Made by a program: the position numbers and the translations under genes. Shown here piece after piece: positions 5,521-40,870 of a stretch of 41,741 nucleotides of DNA. This DNA comes from a virus: the IMG/VR virus record IMGVR_UViG_3300047378_000946, positions 1-41,741 of that record. One strand, 5' to 3'. Position 1 is the stretch's first letter; each line of letters starts with the position of its first letter. Below the pieces are notes generated by a model. It did not search any database and was not told where the DNA came from. It saw only the letters and a list, made by a program, of their open reading frames with translations.

Positions 5521-8500
5521 TATGCTACTCCGTAGGGGTTCAGAATTCCACCTGAACGTTTTTGGTTTTGTAGCTCTGATTGGACAGCTTGTGCAATTGC
5601 TCCCCCTAGCTTATCCATATCCGGACCCGTGCTACCTTCTTTCTTTTGGGAAGCCCCATCTGCAGAAACATTAACAACAATATTATTGTTAGTAGCTCCG
5701 CTATCTTTCATCTCTACTGGAATAGACTTTCCGTTCGGTAAAGGCACTACTGCTTCTGTTCCATGAAGAACTGCAGGATAGCCGGACGTAGAACCTTTAG
5801 CTACTCCACCTGTTGCATATCCAGATACTTTTGCACCATTTGAAAAAATTCCTCCGTTTCTACCGGTGGGCGCCTTTATACCTAAGAAGTTACCGAATCC
5901 GGTTCCTCCCAGAGTACTTTCCAACATCTTCATAACCATTAACTTAATAATCATTTTTGCTATATCTGCTATTATTGCTTTTGCCATATCCGCAAAGGCT
6001 TGTTTAGCAGATTTTGTACCGTCTACTAGTGATTGAAAAGCTGACTGCATATTAGACTGTAAAGAATCTCCAATTTGTAAACCCATTTGAGCCATTTCAT
6101 TTGCTGCTTTAGTTGCTGCCCGGCTTTTTTCTTCTGCTAGATCTATTTCTCGTTGACCTTGTTCCATTAACTTAGTATGGGCTGCTAGACCAATTTCGTC
6201 AATAATAAGTATTCTATCTGAGTGCATTCTTTGCAGATCGTTTTTCTTTTGAAGCAATTCTATTTTTGCTTGCTCTGCAGCTAAGTCTGCTTGCTCCCTC
6301 TGTCCGAATGCAGAATTTAAGTCTGCTTTAGCTCCTACTTGGGCTACAGAGGTAGTATTTCTTTTGTCTGCTAACTTTTTATCTTCTGCTTCGATTGCTC
6401 TTAAATTCTCTATAAAAGCATCTATGCCTCCTGCATCTTTAAATCGAGCGTCTAGTTTTTCTTTTATATCTGTAGTCAGTCCTAGAGTCTTTCCTGCTTC
6501 GGTAGCTGCATCTCCCATACTGCTTATTTTTGAGGTATAGCTTAAAACTGCTTCTGCACTGCCGCCCTTTAAAGCACTAGACATATTTTCTAGCTTATCT
6601 TTTGCTCCATCAATATTTGCGGTAAATCGTCCAGCATTTGCAGTCAGCTCCCTTATTGCTTTAGTATTACCTTCTCCTACTGCCTTTGCAAATGCAGGAG
6701 ATACTTTATCCAAACCTTTCATTTGTTCTTGAATTGCGGCTAAACCTTCTGCATATTTATCTGTACCCTCTAAACCTTCTAATTGTTCAAACATGTCTAA
6801 GACTGGAAGACTCTTTATGCTTTCTGCTCTTGCTCTGTCTGCTTTCAGGGGGTCATAGTTTTTATCTTTTGTATTAAATACTTTTCCAGATAAAATAAGA
6901 TTTAACTCTTTTCCTACACTTTTTGCAGAATCTTTTATATCTGCTAAAGTCTGTTTGTAGTCTTCGGCTGCTTCTCTGCCCTTCTGCCAACTGTCTGCCA
7001 TCTTATATATAGAAGTAGACTGTACTGCGTTTTCTATAGAATTACCTAAATCGGTTCCGAAAGTAGTTTCTTTAGTCATTTCAAGATTTACTCCTGGTAT
7101 TCTATTAGCTTGTTCTTTTACATAATTTATGGCTTTAATAGCTCCATTTACTATAACTTCTATAAATTTTAAAGAACCCTTTACTACAGAAATTATACCA
7201 TCCATTATACTTCTAGGCGCATTTACGATCGCCATGATTAAATCATAAATCATTTGTATTATGCCGAGTATGACTGTAGCTTTCATAGCCATATTCATTG
7301 CTTTTCCAAAACCTTTTGCAGCTTTACCCGCAAGGATTAAACCACCTGCAAGCTTTTTCTTTATAGTAGCACCCGTAGCTTTTGCTTTAAGACTTAATTT
7401 TTTAAACATAGTACCTATCTTGCCTGTGGTTGATCTTGCTTTAGTTTCGGTTTTAGCAAGACCTCCTCCTATGCTTCGTGCAATGTCTATACCTACATCT
7501 TTGAAAATGCCTTTTGTAATTTTTCCTGTTTTTTGATACTCTCTTTCTGCCGCAGCTAACGCTTTTTTTAGATTTGCTTTATCAGGTCCTTTCATTTCGC
7601 CTGCTGCGGCTCTTGCAAGTATTGGAGATTTAGCTCCTGCTTTTACAGCTTTACCCGCCCCTGATTTTAACTCTGTAGCGCCTTCCGATCTTAAATCAGA
7701 AGCAGATTTTTTAGCTTCTTCCAGTTCTTGTGTATATTGCTCTACTGCTGTTTTTGCATCTGCTGCTTTTGTAACTTGACTATCAAAAAACTCTGTAATA
7801 GCATCTTTTGCCTCTCCAACAAATGGCATATTTTTTGCAATACTTAAACCAATAGCACCAAAAAATAAAGCAGCTACGGTTGCATTTTCATTAAGAAAGT
7901 TTGCGAGAGCTCTAAAAGGTGGCAATAAAAATTCGGATAAAGTTTTTGCTAAGTCTGAGAAAGTTGTTCCGAGTTGAACAAACGGGTTGGCCTGACCTTC
8001 TGCATCTCCTACTACATCATTAAGCTGTCTCATTGTTTCTAAATATACTGCTTGAGATTGATCGGCTGTAGTAAGTGCATCTGCTGAAATTCCTAAAGAT
8101 TCTGCATATTTCTTTTTTGCTGTTTCCAGTCTAAGTGTAATTCCGAGTTCATCAAGTAATTCTGGCTCAGCTTTTGAGACACCTTTAGTGAGTCGGTTAA
8201 ATGCATCATTAAAGTCCCTACCTAGTACGTTGGATACTTTTAAAGCTCCATCTGCCATTTTTGCCATTTGTTCGGAAGAAAATCCTTTTGCTAAACCCAT
8301 TGCGGACGCTGAAGCAGCTGTTTGGAAATCGAGCATACCCTTAGATGCTTCTCGCAGTTTACCTGTTAAACTCTGCATAGCGATACCACTATTTTGAGCA
8401 AACTGTATCTGACTTTGTTCTAAAACTTGGATATCTGCGGCATTCTTTAAAAAGTTAAAAGCGGCGCTCAAAGCAAATACACTAGCAGCAAAAGTAGCAT

Positions 8501-18713: not shown

Positions 18714-19285
18714 ATGTGAGTACCTCTCTTTTTATGGCCGTTCCAAGCCATAAAGCCTGCCGCTGCTAATGCCCAGTAAGCAAGATAATTTAAAAACTTA
18801 AATCCGTTTACTTCAATGCAGATGTCTCGAAAAAGCTTATCTGCCTGACTTTGATCCATTCGAGTTGTGTTTGTTCCATCTTTCTTTTTCAAGCAAGCAA
18901 ACTTATAAACATAATCGTGAACAAGACCGCCCATAAGCAGTACTCCAGTAGGAGATAGCCACATAGCTAGAAACTTTGGTACCGATGCGCCATCAAACTC
19001 AAAACCTTTAGGAACTACGTACTCTTCACCACCGATCTTAAAATGAAAGTCATCGCAGATTTCCCACTGTCGTACTCCCATTAACCACATAAGAATACCT
19101 TTAAAAAAGCCTTTATCTTTAGTCTGAATTGGAAGAGGCTTCATGTGAGGCATTTCAGAATACTCAAATCCTACACGGTAGTCTCCTTGTCCATCAAACT
19201 TAGTAAAGATAAAACCAACTACTACTAGTGCTCCGAATACTGTCCACTGCCAAAAAGTCATTGCTAAATCAAGTAACATTTCCAT
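18710..19285 (-). CDS. Membrane-anchored DUF1353 protein
   Basis: A 191-residue protein. Residues 5-28 form a membrane anchor (LDLAMTFWQWTVFGALVVVGFIF region). The rest contains the DUF1353 signature VPKGFEFDGASVPKFL (about 91-106), GGLVHDYVY (about 117-125) and QADKLFRDIC (about 144-153). A hydrophobic AYWALAAAGFMAWNG segment lies near the C-terminus. DUF1353 proteins are frequent in tailed phages near lysis or structural genes; their biochemical activity is not known to me. The histidine-aspartate pair in LVHDY is conserved in the family and could be a metal site (inference). It is coupled to neighbours on both sides by overlaps. Confidence 0.8.
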   Translation of the reverse strand: MEMLLDLAMTFWQWTVFGALVVVGFIFTKFDGQGDYRVGFEYSEMPHMKPLPIQTKDKGFFKGILMWLMGVRQWEICDDFHFKIGGEEYVVPKGFEFDGASVPKFLAMWLSPTGVLLMGGLVHDYVYKFACLKKKDGTNTTRMDQSQADKLFRDICIEVNGFKFLNYLAYWALAAAGFMAWNGHKKRGTHI

Positions 19286-19605
19286 TATTTTTTCCCTGCA
19301 TATGCATTGGCCCCAAAGAATGCGGAAACCAAAGCCGCGATAGCTACAAAGTAAGTGGGAGCAATATCACCAATTATTTTTGCGGCGCTATCCAGACCAA
19401 ATAATGATGTGCAAAAAATGCCGAAAGGATAAAACAACATTCCCCATAAGGAAAACCATGTCATCTTTCTCATTGCATCACGCTGTGCATCTTGATCTTC
19501 TAATTCTTTTCTTCGAAACTCAAGGTACATTTCTGTTTCAATGTCGGATACTTTTCCGTCACCATTTGTGTCTGCGGGATGAAACCCAGTTTTTTCGTCT
19601 ACCAT
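19285..19605 (-). CDS. EF-hand membrane protein, holin candidate
   Basis: A 106-residue protein. Residues 12-23 are a perfect EF-hand loop, DTNGDGKVSDIE, with ligands at positions 1, 3, 5 and 12. A charged helix follows (about 24-46), then two hydrophobic segments: WFSLWGMLFYPFGIFCTSLFG (about 50-70) and PTYFVAIAALVSAFFGANAY (about 83-102). Two membrane helices in about 100 residues suit a holin, and the calcium-binding N-terminus would be an unusual regulatory head. Function is inferred from topology only. The gene overlaps both neighbours. Confidence 0.75.
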   Translation of the reverse strand: MVDEKTGFHPADTNGDGKVSDIETEMYLEFRRKELEDQDAQRDAMRKMTWFSLWGMLFYPFGIFCTSLFGLDSAAKIIGDIAPTYFVAIAALVSAFFGANAYAGKK

Positions 19606-21748: not shown

Positions 21749-21777
21749 ATTATACTCAGTTAGGGTTGTTTTGTCAA
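21749..21777 (-). promoter_or_regulatory. Consensus promoter giving a leaderless terminase small subunit mRNA
   Basis: Minus strand: TTGACA (21772-21777), 17 bp, TATAAT (21749-21754), behind an A-rich run ending CTTC. The ATG at 21741 is 8 bases from the -10 end. Confidence 0.87.
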
Positions 21778-22362: not shown

Positions 22363-22839
22363 TTAGTCATTTCCTTCCCCCGTTGCTAAAATACTTTCAG
22401 CCATAGGGACTTGTACTGCAGGTATATCGTCAACAAACTGCAAGTTTCTTAAGTTTGCAATCTCCTGCTTTAACCTGAATACCTCCATTCTTTTCTTTTC
22501 GAGCTCTAACTGATACAAAGTATTGCAGTTAAGTCTTTCTTTCGGAGCTCCTATTGGTATATTAATACGAGCATAAACACCTACGTCGTTTGTTCGTACT
22601 TGAGGCATTGTCTGATCTACTATGTAAGGACTGTCATATCCATTATCTATGAACCCTACAACTCCGAATTCCACATTCGTGGAAGAGCCGATAGCATTCT
22701 GGCACTCTAGCTGGCCTGATCTTATCCTATCGGATGCATAACTTTGTGGAGAAGCTGGCAAGTTCAGATTAAGAGAACTTGAATCGCCCCAAGCTGTTGA
22801 ACATAAGAACAACAGTACTATAATTATTAAAAACTTCAC
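22363..22839 (-). CDS. Exported protein of the pilin-like cassette
   Basis: A 158-residue protein with a clear signal peptide (MKFLIIIVLLFLCSTAWGDS, probable cut after WG near residue 18). The mature part starts with a polar region, has two cysteines (about 50 and 105), a possible beta domain (SSTNVEFGVVGFIDNGYDSP, VGVYARINIPIG) and a helical LYQLELEKKRMEVFRLKQEIANL segment. The cysteine in the signal region has no obvious lipobox. No known family was recognised. It lies 6 bases after the PapD-like gene and directly before the coiled-coil membrane gene. Confidence 0.72.
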   Translation of the reverse strand: MKFLIIIVLLFLCSTAWGDSSSLNLNLPASPQSYASDRIRSGQLECQNAIGSSTNVEFGVVGFIDNGYDSPYIVDQTMPQVRTNDVGVYARINIPIGAPKERLNCNTLYQLELEKKRMEVFRLKQEIANLRNLQFVDDIPAVQVPMAESILATGEGND

Positions 22840-22845
22840 AATGTC

Positions 22846-23217
22846 TCACTTTAATTTTGAACATATTCGGGAAGATACTATAGAAGGTTCCTTCACAGTT
22901 AATAGTATCTTCGATTTAGAACAAATATACTTAGCTTTATCACTTTCCTTTTTACTAATGTATACTGTTATATTCTTTGTTTCTCGGTACTCCATAGGGA
23001 CTACCTTGCTTTCAATTGCAAACCGTACAGGCTCCCAGTCTTCGTCAAATACGTTGACTTCGTAGTACCTTATATCTTCTCTAGTATTGAAAAGAACCAT
23101 TTCTGCTTTGTATACTCCTGCTATATGCGACATTTCTAGCTCTGGATAAGTAGGAGTAAACTGGTGGGCATTTGCATACCCACCCGTTAAAAGTAAAAAC
23201 AGTATGATAAATCTCAT
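22846..23217 (-). CDS. Exported PapD-like (pilus-chaperone-like) protein
   Basis: A 123-residue protein with signal peptide MRFIILFLLLTGGYANA. The mature part resembles the N-terminal immunoglobulin-like domain of periplasmic pilus chaperones: GVYKAEMVLFNTRED strand pair, YYEVNVFDEDWEPVRFA, then VVPMEYRETKNITVYI and a YICSKSKI strand with Cys pairs (C98, C118 by approximate count). It has only one domain; classical PapD/CsuC chaperones have two. It directly follows the pilin-like gene (shared base TAATG), as chaperones follow subunits in chaperone-usher operons. The fold assignment is by eye. A structural role instead of chaperoning is possible. Confidence 0.65.
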   Translation of the reverse strand: MRFIILFLLLTGGYANAHQFTPTYPELEMSHIAGVYKAEMVLFNTREDIRYYEVNVFDEDWEPVRFAIESKVVPMEYRETKNITVYISKKESDKAKYICSKSKILLTVKEPSIVSSRICSKLK

Positions 23218-23723
23218 TACTTAGCAATACACTCCGCTACAATAAGTGCAGTATAGTTTCCTGAAGGAAATGACTTTCCAACACCATAATCTGCTTCAGA
23301 AGTTACATTAAACCAGACACTACCTGCTTTCACTAGGTCAAATTCTGTGGTGTGTCCGTTATTGTAGATAGCTTTGTCTGTATTAAATATAGACATTGCT
23401 GCATCAGACATTTGACCCGCAATAGTTGTGCTCGTCCAGTCTACGGTATCCGATAAATTTGGAGAAGCTGAGAAGTTAGTGGGCGTTGTAATTACCGCTT
23501 TATATTTTGAAGCAGTAATAATGTCGTAACGGATAATTGGCATTACTCCTCCGTCCGCAGCTTTAGTACTTAGCTTATCTACTGTTGGGTTACCAAACCT
23601 ACCTGGAGTGTCCGATTGAATTACACACTTAGATTCAATAAATCCGGTAATTGGAATATCAGCGCCTGCAGTACTAGCCGCAACTGCTAATGCAGGAATT
23701 AATAATAGTTTTTTCATTTTCAT
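23217..23723 (-). CDS. Exported pilin-like (fimbrial/spore coat U-like) subunit
   Basis: A 168-residue protein with a signal peptide (MKMKKLLLIPALAVAASTAGA). The mature chain is beta-rich with one early and one late cysteine (C33 and C165) that could form a disulfide. It ends in FPSGNYTALIVAECIAK, like the G-strand region of pilin subunits (x-G-x-Y-x-A/T-x-x-V). A helix-poor, Thr/Ser-rich composition also fits. Together with the following PapD-like gene it suggests a chaperone-assisted surface or periplasmic fibre. No usher gene is in the window. Fold assignment is inference from pattern. Confidence 0.62.
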   Translation of the reverse strand: MKMKKLLLIPALAVAASTAGADIPITGFIESKCVIQSDTPGRFGNPTVDKLSTKAADGGVMPIIRYDIITASKYKAVITTPTNFSASPNLSDTVDWTSTTIAGQMSDAAMSIFNTDKAIYNNGHTTEFDLVKAGSVWFNVTSEADYGVGKSFPSGNYTALIVAECIAK

Positions 23724-23762
23724 AGGTTTTTGAGTTCCTAGTGCAGATGCACCCTTCGATAA

Positions 23763-24629
23763 TTATTTATCGTACTGTTTTGTTACCATCTCTTCGTGTA
23801 ACTTTTGTTGAGCTAATCCTAGCCTCTTTCCTTTCTTATTTTTAGGTATCTGACTATCAGGGATCATAGGCATATCTGTATAAGTGCCTCCGTTTAATGA
23901 ACTAGTATAAGATACCGGTATATAGTTCATTGCAAATAGAGCTGCTTCTTGAGCTGCAGCCTGTCCATCCATTGCTCCACGATTAAGACCTCCAAGCATT
24001 TTTTCGAGATCTACTTTAACTTTTTTAATACGCATCTTGCGCTCGTACTCTTCCTCTTCGTCAAGTTCTGCTTGGCGTTCCATTTCTGCTAGTACAAGCT
24101 CATCTTGTAAAGGATCATTAAATTCTACTACGGGAATAAGGTCTGGGTCATAGGGAATTCTGTAACCAGGACAGGTTGGATCACTTTGAGGGTCAAAGCA
24201 GGGCTCATACTGATAAGTATAAATTACAGAAGGATCTGACACACTTCCTGTACCTTCTACTTCAATTGAACCGTCGCCCCATCTTTCCAAAGGTATTGCA
24301 CCAACTGGAATTATTTTGTAGATTTTATTGCCTTCGAGACCTGACCAATCATCAGTTTCCCGAAAGATATAACCATCACCTAAAGCATCTTCGTTCTGTA
24401 CATGCACGAGCATGTCATCTTCAATATTTTTTACTGCCGTATAACGATAAATAACATTCCCCACAGTAAGACCAGCTTGCTGCGGAAGAATGTTCTGCAT
24501 TACCCAGTTGTAGGCTCTAGTCCCACTTTCTCCGTAAACTACGTCAGAGTAAGAGTAGGAGGAGTAGGCTAGCAACGCCGCCAAGAGCCCAGCCTGTAGC
24601 CTTCGTTGTTTCGTCCATTTTACCTTCAT
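23763..24629 (-). CDS. Exported protein of the pilin-like cassette (288 residues)
   Basis: N-terminal signal peptide or anchor (KWTKQRRLQAGLLAALLAYSSYSYSDVVY). The mature N-domain has a WSGLEGNKIYKIIP / IPLERWGDGSIEVEGTGSVSDP pattern and a short Cys-containing CFDPQSDPTCPGYRIPYDP segment (about residues 163-181). Next come an acidic helical stretch (about 190-215) and a Lys-rich C-terminus. From memory, similar proteins recur in marine phages beside the next gene. The start overlaps the upstream gene's last 86 bases in a different frame, so its signal peptide and that gene's membrane tail are encoded by the same DNA. GAGGAAGAAG gives a good ribosome binding site. Confidence 0.68.
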   Translation of the reverse strand: MKVKWTKQRRLQAGLLAALLAYSSYSYSDVVYGESGTRAYNWVMQNILPQQAGLTVGNVIYRYTAVKNIEDDMLVHVQNEDALGDGYIFRETDDWSGLEGNKIYKIIPVGAIPLERWGDGSIEVEGTGSVSDPSVIYTYQYEPCFDPQSDPTCPGYRIPYDPDLIPVVEFNDPLQDELVLAEMERQAELDEEEEYERKMRIKKVKVDLEKMLGGLNRGAMDGQAAAQEAALFAMNYIPVSYTSSLNGGTYTDMPMIPDSQIPKNKKGKRLGLAQQKLHEEMVTKQYDK

Positions 24630-25101
24630 CTTCTTCCTCTATTGGTTGAACTTCGGTATGGCTTTCCCATCCTGCTTTTGCCTCCGGACCTATCAGTCCG
24701 TCGTAAGGGCAAGGAGTACCTGCCATCATCATGGCATCGAATACTCGTTTATCTTGACACATTACTGAAACTGCTGCTACCTTCATTCCCATATCATAGA
24801 GAGTTTTGGCATTCTTCAGCTTCTCACAATTCATGTCTCTTTGGGTAGTACCCATTGAAATACCAAGAATCTGAGTTTGCACTGCACCCGCAACTCCTAC
24901 TGTACAAAGATCCGAATTAGAAATATTCATTGTCGGAGTAATTGCTGAAGGCGGTGGAGACTTCAGTGTTGTTTCAGTTTTTGACGTTATGTCACTAGTT
25001 GTTGTTGAGTCTGTTACTATTACGTCTTCTGCAGGTACTTCATCCTGAGCATATAAGGATGAGCTCCAAAGAAGCGTGAAGATAATAAAAAATCTTTTCA
25101 T
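24544..25101 (-). CDS. Exported, C-terminally anchored protein, first gene of the cassette
   Basis: A 185-residue protein with a signal peptide (MKRFFIIFTLLWSSSLYAQ), a Thr/Ser-rich linker (about 20-60), and a compact domain SDLCTVGVAGAVQTQILGIS ... MNCEKLKNAKTLYDMGMKVAAVSVMC ... TPCPYDGLIGPEA with four cysteines (about residues 66, 95, 119, 136). A C-terminal hydrophobic tail (about 168-185) follows. From memory this Cys domain is common in marine phages with no known function. It is the first gene after the 25,147 promoter. The tail overlaps the next gene's start. Export followed by membrane anchoring is predicted. Confidence 0.7.
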   Translation of the reverse strand: MKRFFIIFTLLWSSSLYAQDEVPAEDVIVTDSTTTSDITSKTETTLKSPPPSAITPTMNISNSDLCTVGVAGAVQTQILGISMGTTQRDMNCEKLKNAKTLYDMGMKVAAVSVMCQDKRVFDAMMMAGTPCPYDGLIGPEAKAGWESHTEVQPIEEEDEGKMDETTKATGWALGGVASLLLLLLL

Positions 25102-25146: not shown

Positions 25147-25175
25147 ATTATACCTGAGGTAGCAAATTTTGTCAA
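25147..25175 (-). promoter_or_regulatory. Consensus promoter for the exported cassette
   Basis: Minus strand: TTGACA (25170-25175), 17 bp, TATAAT (25147-25152), preceded by AAAAAATAGTTC. The first gene's ATG is at 25101, leaving a leader of about 40 bases. Confidence 0.87.
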
Positions 25176-38655: not shown

Positions 38656-39135
38656 CTAGTTGTAAAATAAATGATTGTCAATTGTTGTAACTAATTCTAA
38701 ATGTTTTGACCAGTAAGGCTGAACAGTATCAGAGTGATACCATAGAGAGCCTTCTGTTATATCTTTGTACTCTTCAAACAGTACTTGATCTGCTATGTAA
38801 AGCGATTCCATCCATGTTGTGGAATCAGTAGGAAGATCACTCTTACCGTCACAGAACCAACTAAACTGACATCGGTTCTTGACAGGAAGCATGTTGCCTT
38901 TCCAGTTCTCTTCCCACTCTGCTTGGTATACAACTTCACAAACAGAGTTAGGAAACTGTGGATCAGCTACCCTGTTCATTACTACGTTTGCGACTGCCAA
39001 CCGACCTGCAAAAGATTGGTTGGCAGACTCAAAGTATATGTTCTGTGCTAAACAGAACCTCTCACCGTTTTCATCATAGCTCGCACCTGGAATAGGCATA
39101 GCGAGTGCTGCAACTACAGCGAGAGTTCGGATCAC
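38656..39135 (-). CDS. Endolysin, SleB-type cell wall hydrolase with signal peptide
   Basis: A 159-residue protein. Residues 1-18 (MIRTLAVVAALAMPIPGA) are a signal peptide or signal-anchor segment. The rest matches the cell wall hydrolase SleB family: CLAQNIYFESANQSFAGRLAVANVVMNRV with the likely catalytic E36, then CQFSWFCDGKSD, SLWYHSDTVQPYW and a final IDNHLFYN. Such enzymes cut peptidoglycan glycan strands. Sec export by its own signal would allow holin-independent or pinholin-controlled release (inference). It overlaps the MazG-like gene by 4 bases. Confidence 0.87.
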   Translation of the reverse strand: MIRTLAVVAALAMPIPGASYDENGERFCLAQNIYFESANQSFAGRLAVANVVMNRVADPQFPNSVCEVVYQAEWEENWKGNMLPVKNRCQFSWFCDGKSDLPTDSTTWMESLYIADQVLFEEYKDITEGSLWYHSDTVQPYWSKHLELVTTIDNHLFYN

Positions 39136-40046: not shown

Positions 40047-40123
40047 AATTGTTTAAACTCTGGGTTATGCGCTCTATCACGAGCGCGTCGGAGGGCTCTT
40101 GCTCTCTCCATTACACGGTTCAT
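40004..40123 (-). CDS. Small basic protein (39 residues), overlapping DUF1289 gene
   Basis: MNRVMERARALRRARDRAHN, then PEFKQLWQDKLDQLLNLHV. An Arg-rich helix followed by an amphipathic helix. Its ATG overlaps the peroxiredoxin stop (ATGA), and its last 43 bases overlap the DUF1289 gene in another frame. The coupling geometry supports it; the short length leaves doubt. Confidence 0.5.
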   Translation of the reverse strand: MNRVMERARALRRARDRAHNPEFKQLWQDKLDQLLNLHV

Positions 40124-40701
40124 AAACTCGCAAGTATAAATTCAGGAGATGTGTAGTGATATGGATCTTCTTCACAGTTATCTTCCTTACCTTCTTCAAT
40201 GAACCAATCGGTAATCTCACCGTTGTCGATGACACAAGCATATCTCCAAGACCGAGGACCAAAGCCCAAGTTGTCTTTGTCTACAAGCATATTCATACCG
40301 TCTGTAAATTTATGAGAACCATCAGGAATTACTTCAATGTTCTCTAATTTGTTTTCTCGTGCCCACTTATTCATTACGAAAGAGTCGTTCACAGATACAC
40401 AATAAATTGCATCAAACCCATGTTCGTTTAAAAACTCTGGAGCAAGACGCTCAAAGTCTGGAAGCTGATAAGTAGAGCAAGTAGGAGTGAAAGCTCCTGG
40501 CAGTGAGAATACTAAGACTCTGCTGTGAGCAAAGAGATCCCAGGTGCTTACGGTTTTCCACACAAATTCCTGAGTCCCATCAGAGAGATCTACAGGCACA
40601 CGCGTATGAAACACCACTGAGGGTGCGTGAGTTGGAAGACTACGATAAAATCGTTGATCTTCATAATCATCTCGCTCATGGCGAGCACAATAAACTGTCA
40701 T
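40120..40701 (-). CDS. Peroxiredoxin (Prx5/AhpC-TSA-like)
   Basis: A 193-residue protein with the peroxidatic motif PGAFTPTCS (residues 68-76, C75), then PDFERLAPEFLNEHGFDAIYCVSVNDSFVMNKWA and GFGPRSWRYACVIDNGEI, typical of Prx5-type peroxiredoxins. It has a 55-residue N-terminal part (MTVYCARHERDDYEDQRFYR) before the core. It reduces peroxides with a host thiol partner. A longer in-frame start at 40800 was rejected: AAGGATGGTAAA gives a good site for the ATG at 40701, and the extension is inside another gene. This is a rare phage gene that could protect against oxidative stress during infection (inference). Confidence 0.85.
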   Translation of the reverse strand: MTVYCARHERDDYEDQRFYRSLPTHAPSVVFHTRVPVDLSDGTQEFVWKTVSTWDLFAHSRVLVFSLPGAFTPTCSTYQLPDFERLAPEFLNEHGFDAIYCVSVNDSFVMNKWARENKLENIEVIPDGSHKFTDGMNMLVDKDNLGFGPRSWRYACVIDNGEITDWFIEEGKEDNCEEDPYHYTSPEFILASL

Positions 40702-40702
40702 T

Positions 40703-40870
40703 TTACCATCCTTTTTTAATTCTTGTATCAAAATAATACTGTTTACATTCTTTAACGGTCTCAGAAATGCCTTCCTCAACCTCCTTTTTGCATAATGCAT
40801 TTACTTTCTTTGTATTTTCTATTGCTCCAATAGTGCCAGCAATTAACATGGCCCAAAATACTATGTTCAT
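40703..40870 (-). CDS. Small protein with N-terminal membrane segment (55 residues)
   Basis: MNIVFWAMLIAGTIGAIENT followed by KKVNALCKKEVEEGISETVK and ECKQYYFDTRIKKGW. A membrane or signal segment at residues 3-17, then a charged domain with two cysteines (C27, C42). AAGGAAGA precedes the start. It ends one base before the peroxiredoxin start, suggesting co-expression; a membrane-tethered partner is possible but unproven. Confidence 0.68.
   Translation of the reverse strand: MNIVFWAMLIAGTIGAIENTKKVNALCKKEVEEGISETVKECKQYYFDTRIKKGW

Follow-up and report, generated by a model that had tools for sequence, protein, structure and literature searches.

Gene Organization of the Cassette

We analyzed a stretch of 41,741 nucleotides (nt), positions 1–41,741 of the IMG/VR virus record IMGVR_UViG_3300047378_000946 (hereafter, the window), which contains a cassette of five consecutive genes for exported proteins (P1–P5) followed by a gene for a membrane coiled-coil protein (P6), all on the minus strand. 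All of the evidence on the cassette is computational. The record is that of a siphophage, in which the TerL, portal, protease/capsid fusion, major tail, tape measure, and minor tail genes were recognized. A fiber-like gene of 1,923 amino acids (aa) and a gene of 303 aa lie on one side of the cassette, before P1, and the gene for the terminase small subunit lies on the other. The features are listed below; Cys denotes cysteine and Ig immunoglobulin.

24544–25101, minus strand: P1, 185 aa; exported, four conserved Cys, C-terminal hydrophobic tail
23763–24629, minus strand: P2, 288 aa; exported
23217–23723, minus strand: P3, 168 aa; pilin-like subunit
22846–23217, minus strand: P4, 123 aa; single PapD-type Ig domain, candidate mini-chaperone
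22363–22839, minus strand: P5, 158 aa, GTG start; exported, two conserved Cys, C-terminal amphipathic helix
21904–22362, minus strand: P6, 152 aa; N-terminal membrane helix, long coiled coil, conserved C-terminal NPL
25147–25175, minus strand: cassette promoter, TTGACA-17-TATAAT, 12/12 match, 45 nt before P1
23625–23660, minus strand: candidate N-terminal donor strand of P3, DIPITGFIESKC, residues 22–33, ending at the first Cys

The original prediction, which was made from the sequence alone, held that five consecutive genes here begin with signal peptides and share a consensus promoter, and both statements proved correct. Judged by rule, P1–P5 all open with a basic n-region followed by a hydrophobic stretch and then by a plausible signal-peptidase site; the predicted cleavage sites are, in order, SLYA/QD, SYS/DV, AGA/DI, ANA/HQ, and AWG/DS. 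The hydrophobic stretch is preserved across the homologues of all five proteins, and no lipobox is conserved among them (C13 of P5 is not a conserved residue). The Cys residues of the mature P1, P3, P4, and P5 are conserved and mostly even in number, which fits periplasmic proteins in an oxidizing envelope.

The promoter is also retained elsewhere: it was perfect (12/12) in 23 of 47 distinct upstream regions of related loci and matched at 11/12 positions in 7 more, mostly about 45 nt before P1. Most loci arranged in this way retain it, and it is missing from several that have a different gene block immediately upstream. At 21777, the next perfect promoter opens the terminase block. In total, the window has four perfect TTGACA-17-TATAAT sites on the minus strand (32846, 32193, 25175, and 21777), each of which precedes a gene block, suggesting that host RNA polymerase may drive these blocks.

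The genes are tightly packed. The reading frames of P1 and P2 overlap by 86 nt in the window and by 65–89 nt in 43 of 44 loci, so the hydrophobic tail of P1 and the signal peptide of P2 share DNA in overlapping frames (24544–24629, minus strand). The ends of P3/P4 and of P5/P6 mostly touch or overlap.

Conservation and Distribution of the Six Genes

A search with P2 returned 59 viral loci, and every locus that was long enough carried P1–P6 in the same order and on the same strand, even where the surroundings were wholly different. A second search used P4 only, so that the loci were not selected by P2, and relatives of P4 were found to be encoded in at least 535 stretches of the viral database. 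Eighty further loci were collected by P4 alone, starting from distant members; 64 had the complete P1–P6 in order and strand, the remaining 16 were cut by contig ends, and none showed internal gene loss. Among the 144 distinct loci, each cassette gene was present in 107 to 144 (the count of 144/144 for P4 arises by construction), and the best-kept other neighbor family was present in 65. This survey agrees with the earlier expectation that the five exported genes travel together, but the unit is in fact one of six genes because P6 is as well conserved as the other five. The ratios of nonsynonymous to synonymous substitution rates (dN/dS) against relatives were 0.01 to 0.35 for all six genes, which are under purifying selection. 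The contigs carrying the cassette reach 220 kb; hosts are assigned for a minority of the loci, and several of the records may be fragments.

The commonest neighbor outside the cassette (65 of 144 loci) is a homologue of a small protein encoded at 19285–19605 of the window (minus strand), which has an EF-hand-like motif (DTNGDGKVSDIE) and hydrophobic segments. It also occurs in roseophage CRP-207 and L156, and from its sequence it is possibly a calcium-binding holin-like protein.

A scan of a collection of species genomes gave a single P4, on a 44.6-kb contig from a Rhodobacteraceae bin; this contig has all six genes and phage-like neighbors. Because P4 appears there in one phage-like contig only, the family looks phage-specific, and we rejected the possibility of a captured host pilus operon on the same ground.

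Predicted Folds of P3 and P4

Sequence profiles of P3 and P4 gave nothing meaningful against PDB, and fold comparison alone was informative. The AlphaFold2 models, built from alignments of 31 sequences for P3 and 38 for P4, were confident, with predicted local distance difference test (pLDDT) scores of 88.7 and 89.1, respectively. The best Foldseek matches of P3 in PDB were the PapGII pilin domain, CfaB, FimF, CsuA/B, and FimG, and chaperone-usher pilins made up most of its nine best matches; P3 therefore has a pilin-type subunit fold at a template modeling score (TM-score) of 0.5 or less. A Foldseek comparison of the P3 model with viral structures gave no informative match. The mature N-terminus of P3 follows the pattern phi-x-phi-x-G-x-phi-x(2,3)-C in 122 of 126 distinct sequences, and thus has the alternating hydrophobic residues and the glycine (Gly) expected of a pilin. 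The N-terminal extensions of pilins are 10–20 residues long, with alternating hydrophobic residues and Gly at the P4 position (PMC3960871). In the P3 model, residues 22–32 were assigned no strand.

The model of P4 is one PapD-type Ig domain, and its Foldseek matches in PDB belong to the PapD superfamily: the chaperones DraB, SfaE, SafB, FimC, and Caf1M, together with eukaryotic MSP domains. The PapD-type fold of a chaperone N-domain is thus present in P4, with MSP domains matched as well. The chain ends right after strand G1, so that P4 corresponds to the first half of a classical chaperone and no more. C99 lies in strand 97–105 (F1) and C119 in strand 113–121 (G1), and 132 of 134 P4 sequences have exactly two mature Cys. 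An F1–G1 disulfide is the hallmark of the FGL chaperones (PMC4133393), and from the positions of its Cys residues in the model, P4 would form this bond too. In addition, a conserved P-T-Y-P near the mature N-terminus of P4 resembles the A-strand residues of CsuC, W-P-I-Y-P (PMC4654587).

The pilin-like and PapD-like assignments of the original prediction are thus borne out by AlphaFold2 and Foldseek, as are the single PapD domain and the order of subunit followed by chaperone. Neither of the two outcomes named beforehand as refuting the prediction, models lacking a pilin or Ig/PapD fold and surveys in which the five genes are found apart, was obtained. Evolutionary distances of P3 and P4 correlated with each other over and above the remaining cassette genes (partial r 0.44), which was the highest value for both proteins, and adjacency may contribute to it.

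Features of P1, P2, P5, and P6

No Pfam match above the curated cut-off was obtained for P1–P5. At significant E-values, PHROGs returned only families of unknown function, with P1 corresponding to PHROG 20531. P2 has an N-terminal domain (...GDGSIEVEG..CFDPQSDP..CPGY) and a conserved C-terminal QQ..H....QY motif. A weak PHROG match of P5 (E 0.15) hinted at a spanin, and this reading was not used. A homology between P1 and P5, suspected from a shared hairpin-Cys pattern, was ruled out by hhalign (5%; the hhalign values are for single pairs). Homologues of P6 were found in HTVC115P (4e-44) and CRP-207 (4e-38). The N-terminal hydrophobic helix and coiled coil of P6 resemble an i-spanin in outline.

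Relatives in Cultured Phages

The P4 protein of Vibrio phage K450 retrieved 179 Vibrio phage records. The order fiber A, fiber B, P3, P4 was found in the T5-like phages River4 and VPG01, in the 84-kb K450, and in the 60-kb K248, and P5 homologues follow P4 in River4, VPG01, and K450. In River4, a Thalassavirus, the P3 and P4 homologues are gp146 and gp147. P3 and P4 thus come directly after the same two tail-fiber genes in three groups of Vibrio phages, and because the fibers are homologous among the groups, the fiber-P3-P4 block is common to otherwise different phages. With the P3 and P4 profiles of the window family, one match each was obtained in the genomes of River4, VPG01, and Rocket24 (120–128 kb), at adjacent genes; profile comparisons agreed with these matches, and controls in which P3 and P4 were swapped failed. 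These proteins (PHROG 25895 / 25455 in River4, VPG01, K450, and K248) share with the cassette the P3 and P4 homologues, their order, and mostly P5, but they follow tail fibers, and P1, P2, and P6 were not detected with them: the P1 profile had no match and P6 no credible match in these Vibrio phages.

The P5 gene of River4 (L085, 7324–7701) shares DNA with the end of P4, read in a different frame, and its annotation is too short (7498–7701), which hides the signal peptide. In phage VF16 (L084, 4764–5324), the start of a gp143-like tail protein is fused to mature P5; relative to River4, the fiber pair, P3, P4, and the signal peptide of P5 are missing together.

Relatives of P1 occur in pelagiphages and roseophages, often with P6. 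In HTVC115P (gp54, gp53, and gp49) and CRP-207 (gp75–gp73), the homologues of P1 and P6 flank another large protein. The large pelagiphage protein occupies the place of P2 but is not detectably P2, and a search without a positive control detected no P2 homologues in pelagiphages or Vibrio phages. Unlike the cassette, this set has no P3, P4, or P5, and the P3 and P4 profiles found no match in the pelagiphages and roseophages carrying P1 and P6 (HTVC115P and CRP-207). Since P3-P4(-P5) and P1/P6 occur separately, the cassette in the window appears, from these sequence comparisons, to join two modules that are found apart elsewhere, one in Vibrio phages and the other in pelagiphages and roseophages.

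Comparison With Known Systems

The absence of an usher, another point of the original prediction, was upheld: a search for the usher (PF00577) returned nothing from the window or from any of 16 related phage records, 4 of which are full-length records of named Vibrio phages, and the E. coli control gave a match. P4, with one domain in 123 aa, is also not the two-Ig-domain periplasmic chaperone of these systems. On these two grounds, the cassette is not a chaperone-usher system. It is an undescribed phage envelope module that uses chaperone-usher folds, which are present in two of its six proteins. Our literature search found nothing relevant on phage-encoded chaperone-usher proteins.

Like the pilins (PapG pilin domain, CfaB, FimF/FimG, CsuA/B), P3 has a signal peptide, a pilin-like fold, two Cys, an N-terminal donor-like motif with a central Gly, and a C-terminal beta strand. 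It differs in having no Pfam or PDB profile match and in the position of its two Cys, at the first and last strand; the cassette, for its part, differs from pilin systems in being phage-encoded and in lacking an usher and an adhesin subunit. P4 shares the PapD-type Ig fold with the FGL chaperones (Caf1M, SafB, DraB) and the archaic CsuC, the Cys pair at F1 and G1 with the former, and the likeness of its N-terminal P-T-Y-P strand with the W-P-I-Y-P region of the latter, whereas it has one Ig domain instead of two and a G1 strand without bulky alternating hydrophobic residues. The exclusion lipoproteins T5 Llp and Rtp45 are likewise phage-encoded periplasmic proteins, with a possible link to the receptor, but the cassette proteins are not lipoproteins, comprise six genes, and have different folds.

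Possible Roles of the Cassette

Based on these results, we consider, with a probability of about 0.5, that the cassette, as an operon specific to phages, directs the construction of a protein assembly in the envelope of the host cell, with receptor blocking as its most likely role. P4 would meet P3 as it leaves the Sec channel and keep it soluble, after which P3 would be handed to another donor strand, supplied by the N-terminus of a second P3 molecule or by a different partner, for example P5 or P2. The expected product is a short assembly in the periplasm or associated with the outer membrane, and not a pilus extruded to the surface by an usher. P1, with its C-terminal hydrophobic tail, and P6, with its N-terminal membrane helix and a probably periplasmic coiled coil, may anchor this assembly to the inner membrane. 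Late in infection, and here our proposal is weaker, the assembly might alter the envelope such that the receptor of the phage is blocked from inside and sister phages and debris are not bound again, as T5 Llp does. Jamming of receptors from the periplasm by phage proteins has been described for T5 Llp (PMC9586334) and Rtp45 (PMC12685063). A less likely role for the same assembly is to help the outer membrane break when the cell lyses. We slightly favor receptor blocking or superinfection exclusion over help in lysis because P3 and P4 are linked to tail fibers in Vibrio phages.

Several observations weigh against this explanation. The matches obtained for the P3 fold are remote (best Foldseek E 2e-3, TM-score no higher than 0.5), and the fold of P4 resembles the non-chaperone MSP domains as well. 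A classical donor G1 strand has 3–5 alternating bulky hydrophobic residues, whereas the G1 region of P4, PSIVSSRICSKLK, is small or polar at several donor positions, and canonical donor-strand complementation is therefore not established. The proteins P1–P5 have no conserved lipobox and are thus not lipidated in the manner of T5 Llp. Strong conservation of P3 in phages whose fibers are unrelated is odd for a receptor-specific blocker. Finally, genes for holin-like proteins, lysozyme, and lipase flank the cassette in some backgrounds, which suits lysis equally. A more specific version, in which the mini-chaperone P4 loads a polymerization-competent P3 into an envelope-spanning machine of P1, P2, P5, and P6 and thereby forms an usher-independent donor-strand system of marine tailed phages for late control of adsorption or release, is put forward tentatively, at odds well below even; if true, it would be a type of envelope device so far not known from either bacteria or phages.

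The flanking genes and the outline of P6 leave room for a role in release, one that the original prediction did not mention. An envelope-spanning complex of P1–P6 would then disrupt the outer membrane at lysis, replacing or working beside the Rz/Rz1 spanins, with P6 as the inner-membrane coiled coil and P3 and P4 in the periplasm, assembling once the peptidoglycan is cut. The N-terminal membrane helix of P6 and the coiled coil after it give the outline of an i-spanin, the genes downstream in other backgrounds encode, among others, a holin-like protein, a phage lysozyme, and a class 3 lipase, and T5-like Vibrio phages place P3–P5 between the spanin region and the holin/endolysin genes. The cassette also has its own strong promoter and lies beside the packaging genes. 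A crude lipobox scan, run without a positive control, found no open reading frame for an o-spanin lipoprotein in the window. We nevertheless regard this explanation as doubtful: spanins are one or two small proteins, against six here, an annotated spanin is also present in a Vibrio phage carrying P3–P5, and P3 and P4 accompany tail fibers in Vibrio phages.

It is unlikely that P4 and P3 are generic Ig domains with no chaperone-subunit relation, in a cassette of unrelated periplasmic inhibitors of host envelope functions. The MSP matches and the G1 strand of P4 would suit this explanation, as would the sequence profiles, which reach no solved chaperone or pilin. Yet P3 and P4 are neighbors in two distant phage worlds, P4 has the F1–G1 Cys pair, P3 has a pilin-type N-terminus in 122 of 126 sequences, and its best PDB matches are mostly chaperone-usher pilins.

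We consider it quite improbable that the exported proteins act as an adhesin linked to the virion, coating the cell surface or debris and attaching to released virions or fibers to change adsorption. Tail-fiber-like genes do adjoin the cassette in the window and P3-P4 in the three Vibrio phage groups, and VF16 lacks the fiber pair, P3, P4, and the P5 signal peptide all together. Tailed virions, however, assemble in the cytoplasm, whereas P1–P5 carry signal peptides, and P1 and P6 appear to be anchored in the membrane. No usable paper on the virion proteomics of Vibrio phages was found. A true chaperone-usher pilus that borrows the usher of the host would account for a subunit and a chaperone with no usher found beside them, but it is highly improbable, as P4 has no second chaperone domain, the species-genome collection gives no sign of a partner system in a host, and the cassette is found in many phage backgrounds.

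Two other genes of the window, also on the minus strand, were noted. A cell-wall hydrolase (PF07486) with an N-terminal hydrophobic stretch, at 38656–39135 and far from the cassette, is probably the endolysin. At 40120–40800, this phage carries a peroxiredoxin-like gene (Redoxin, PF08534).

The six-gene block remains intact across marine phages that differ widely in their size and in the genes they carry, and it probably serves an important and general task. To our knowledge, P3 and P4 would be the first phage-specific, usher-less chaperone-subunit pair of the pilus type, and the cassette offers a natural way to learn what one PapD domain is capable of. As P3, P4, and P5 occur in cultured Vibrio phages, their function is directly testable.

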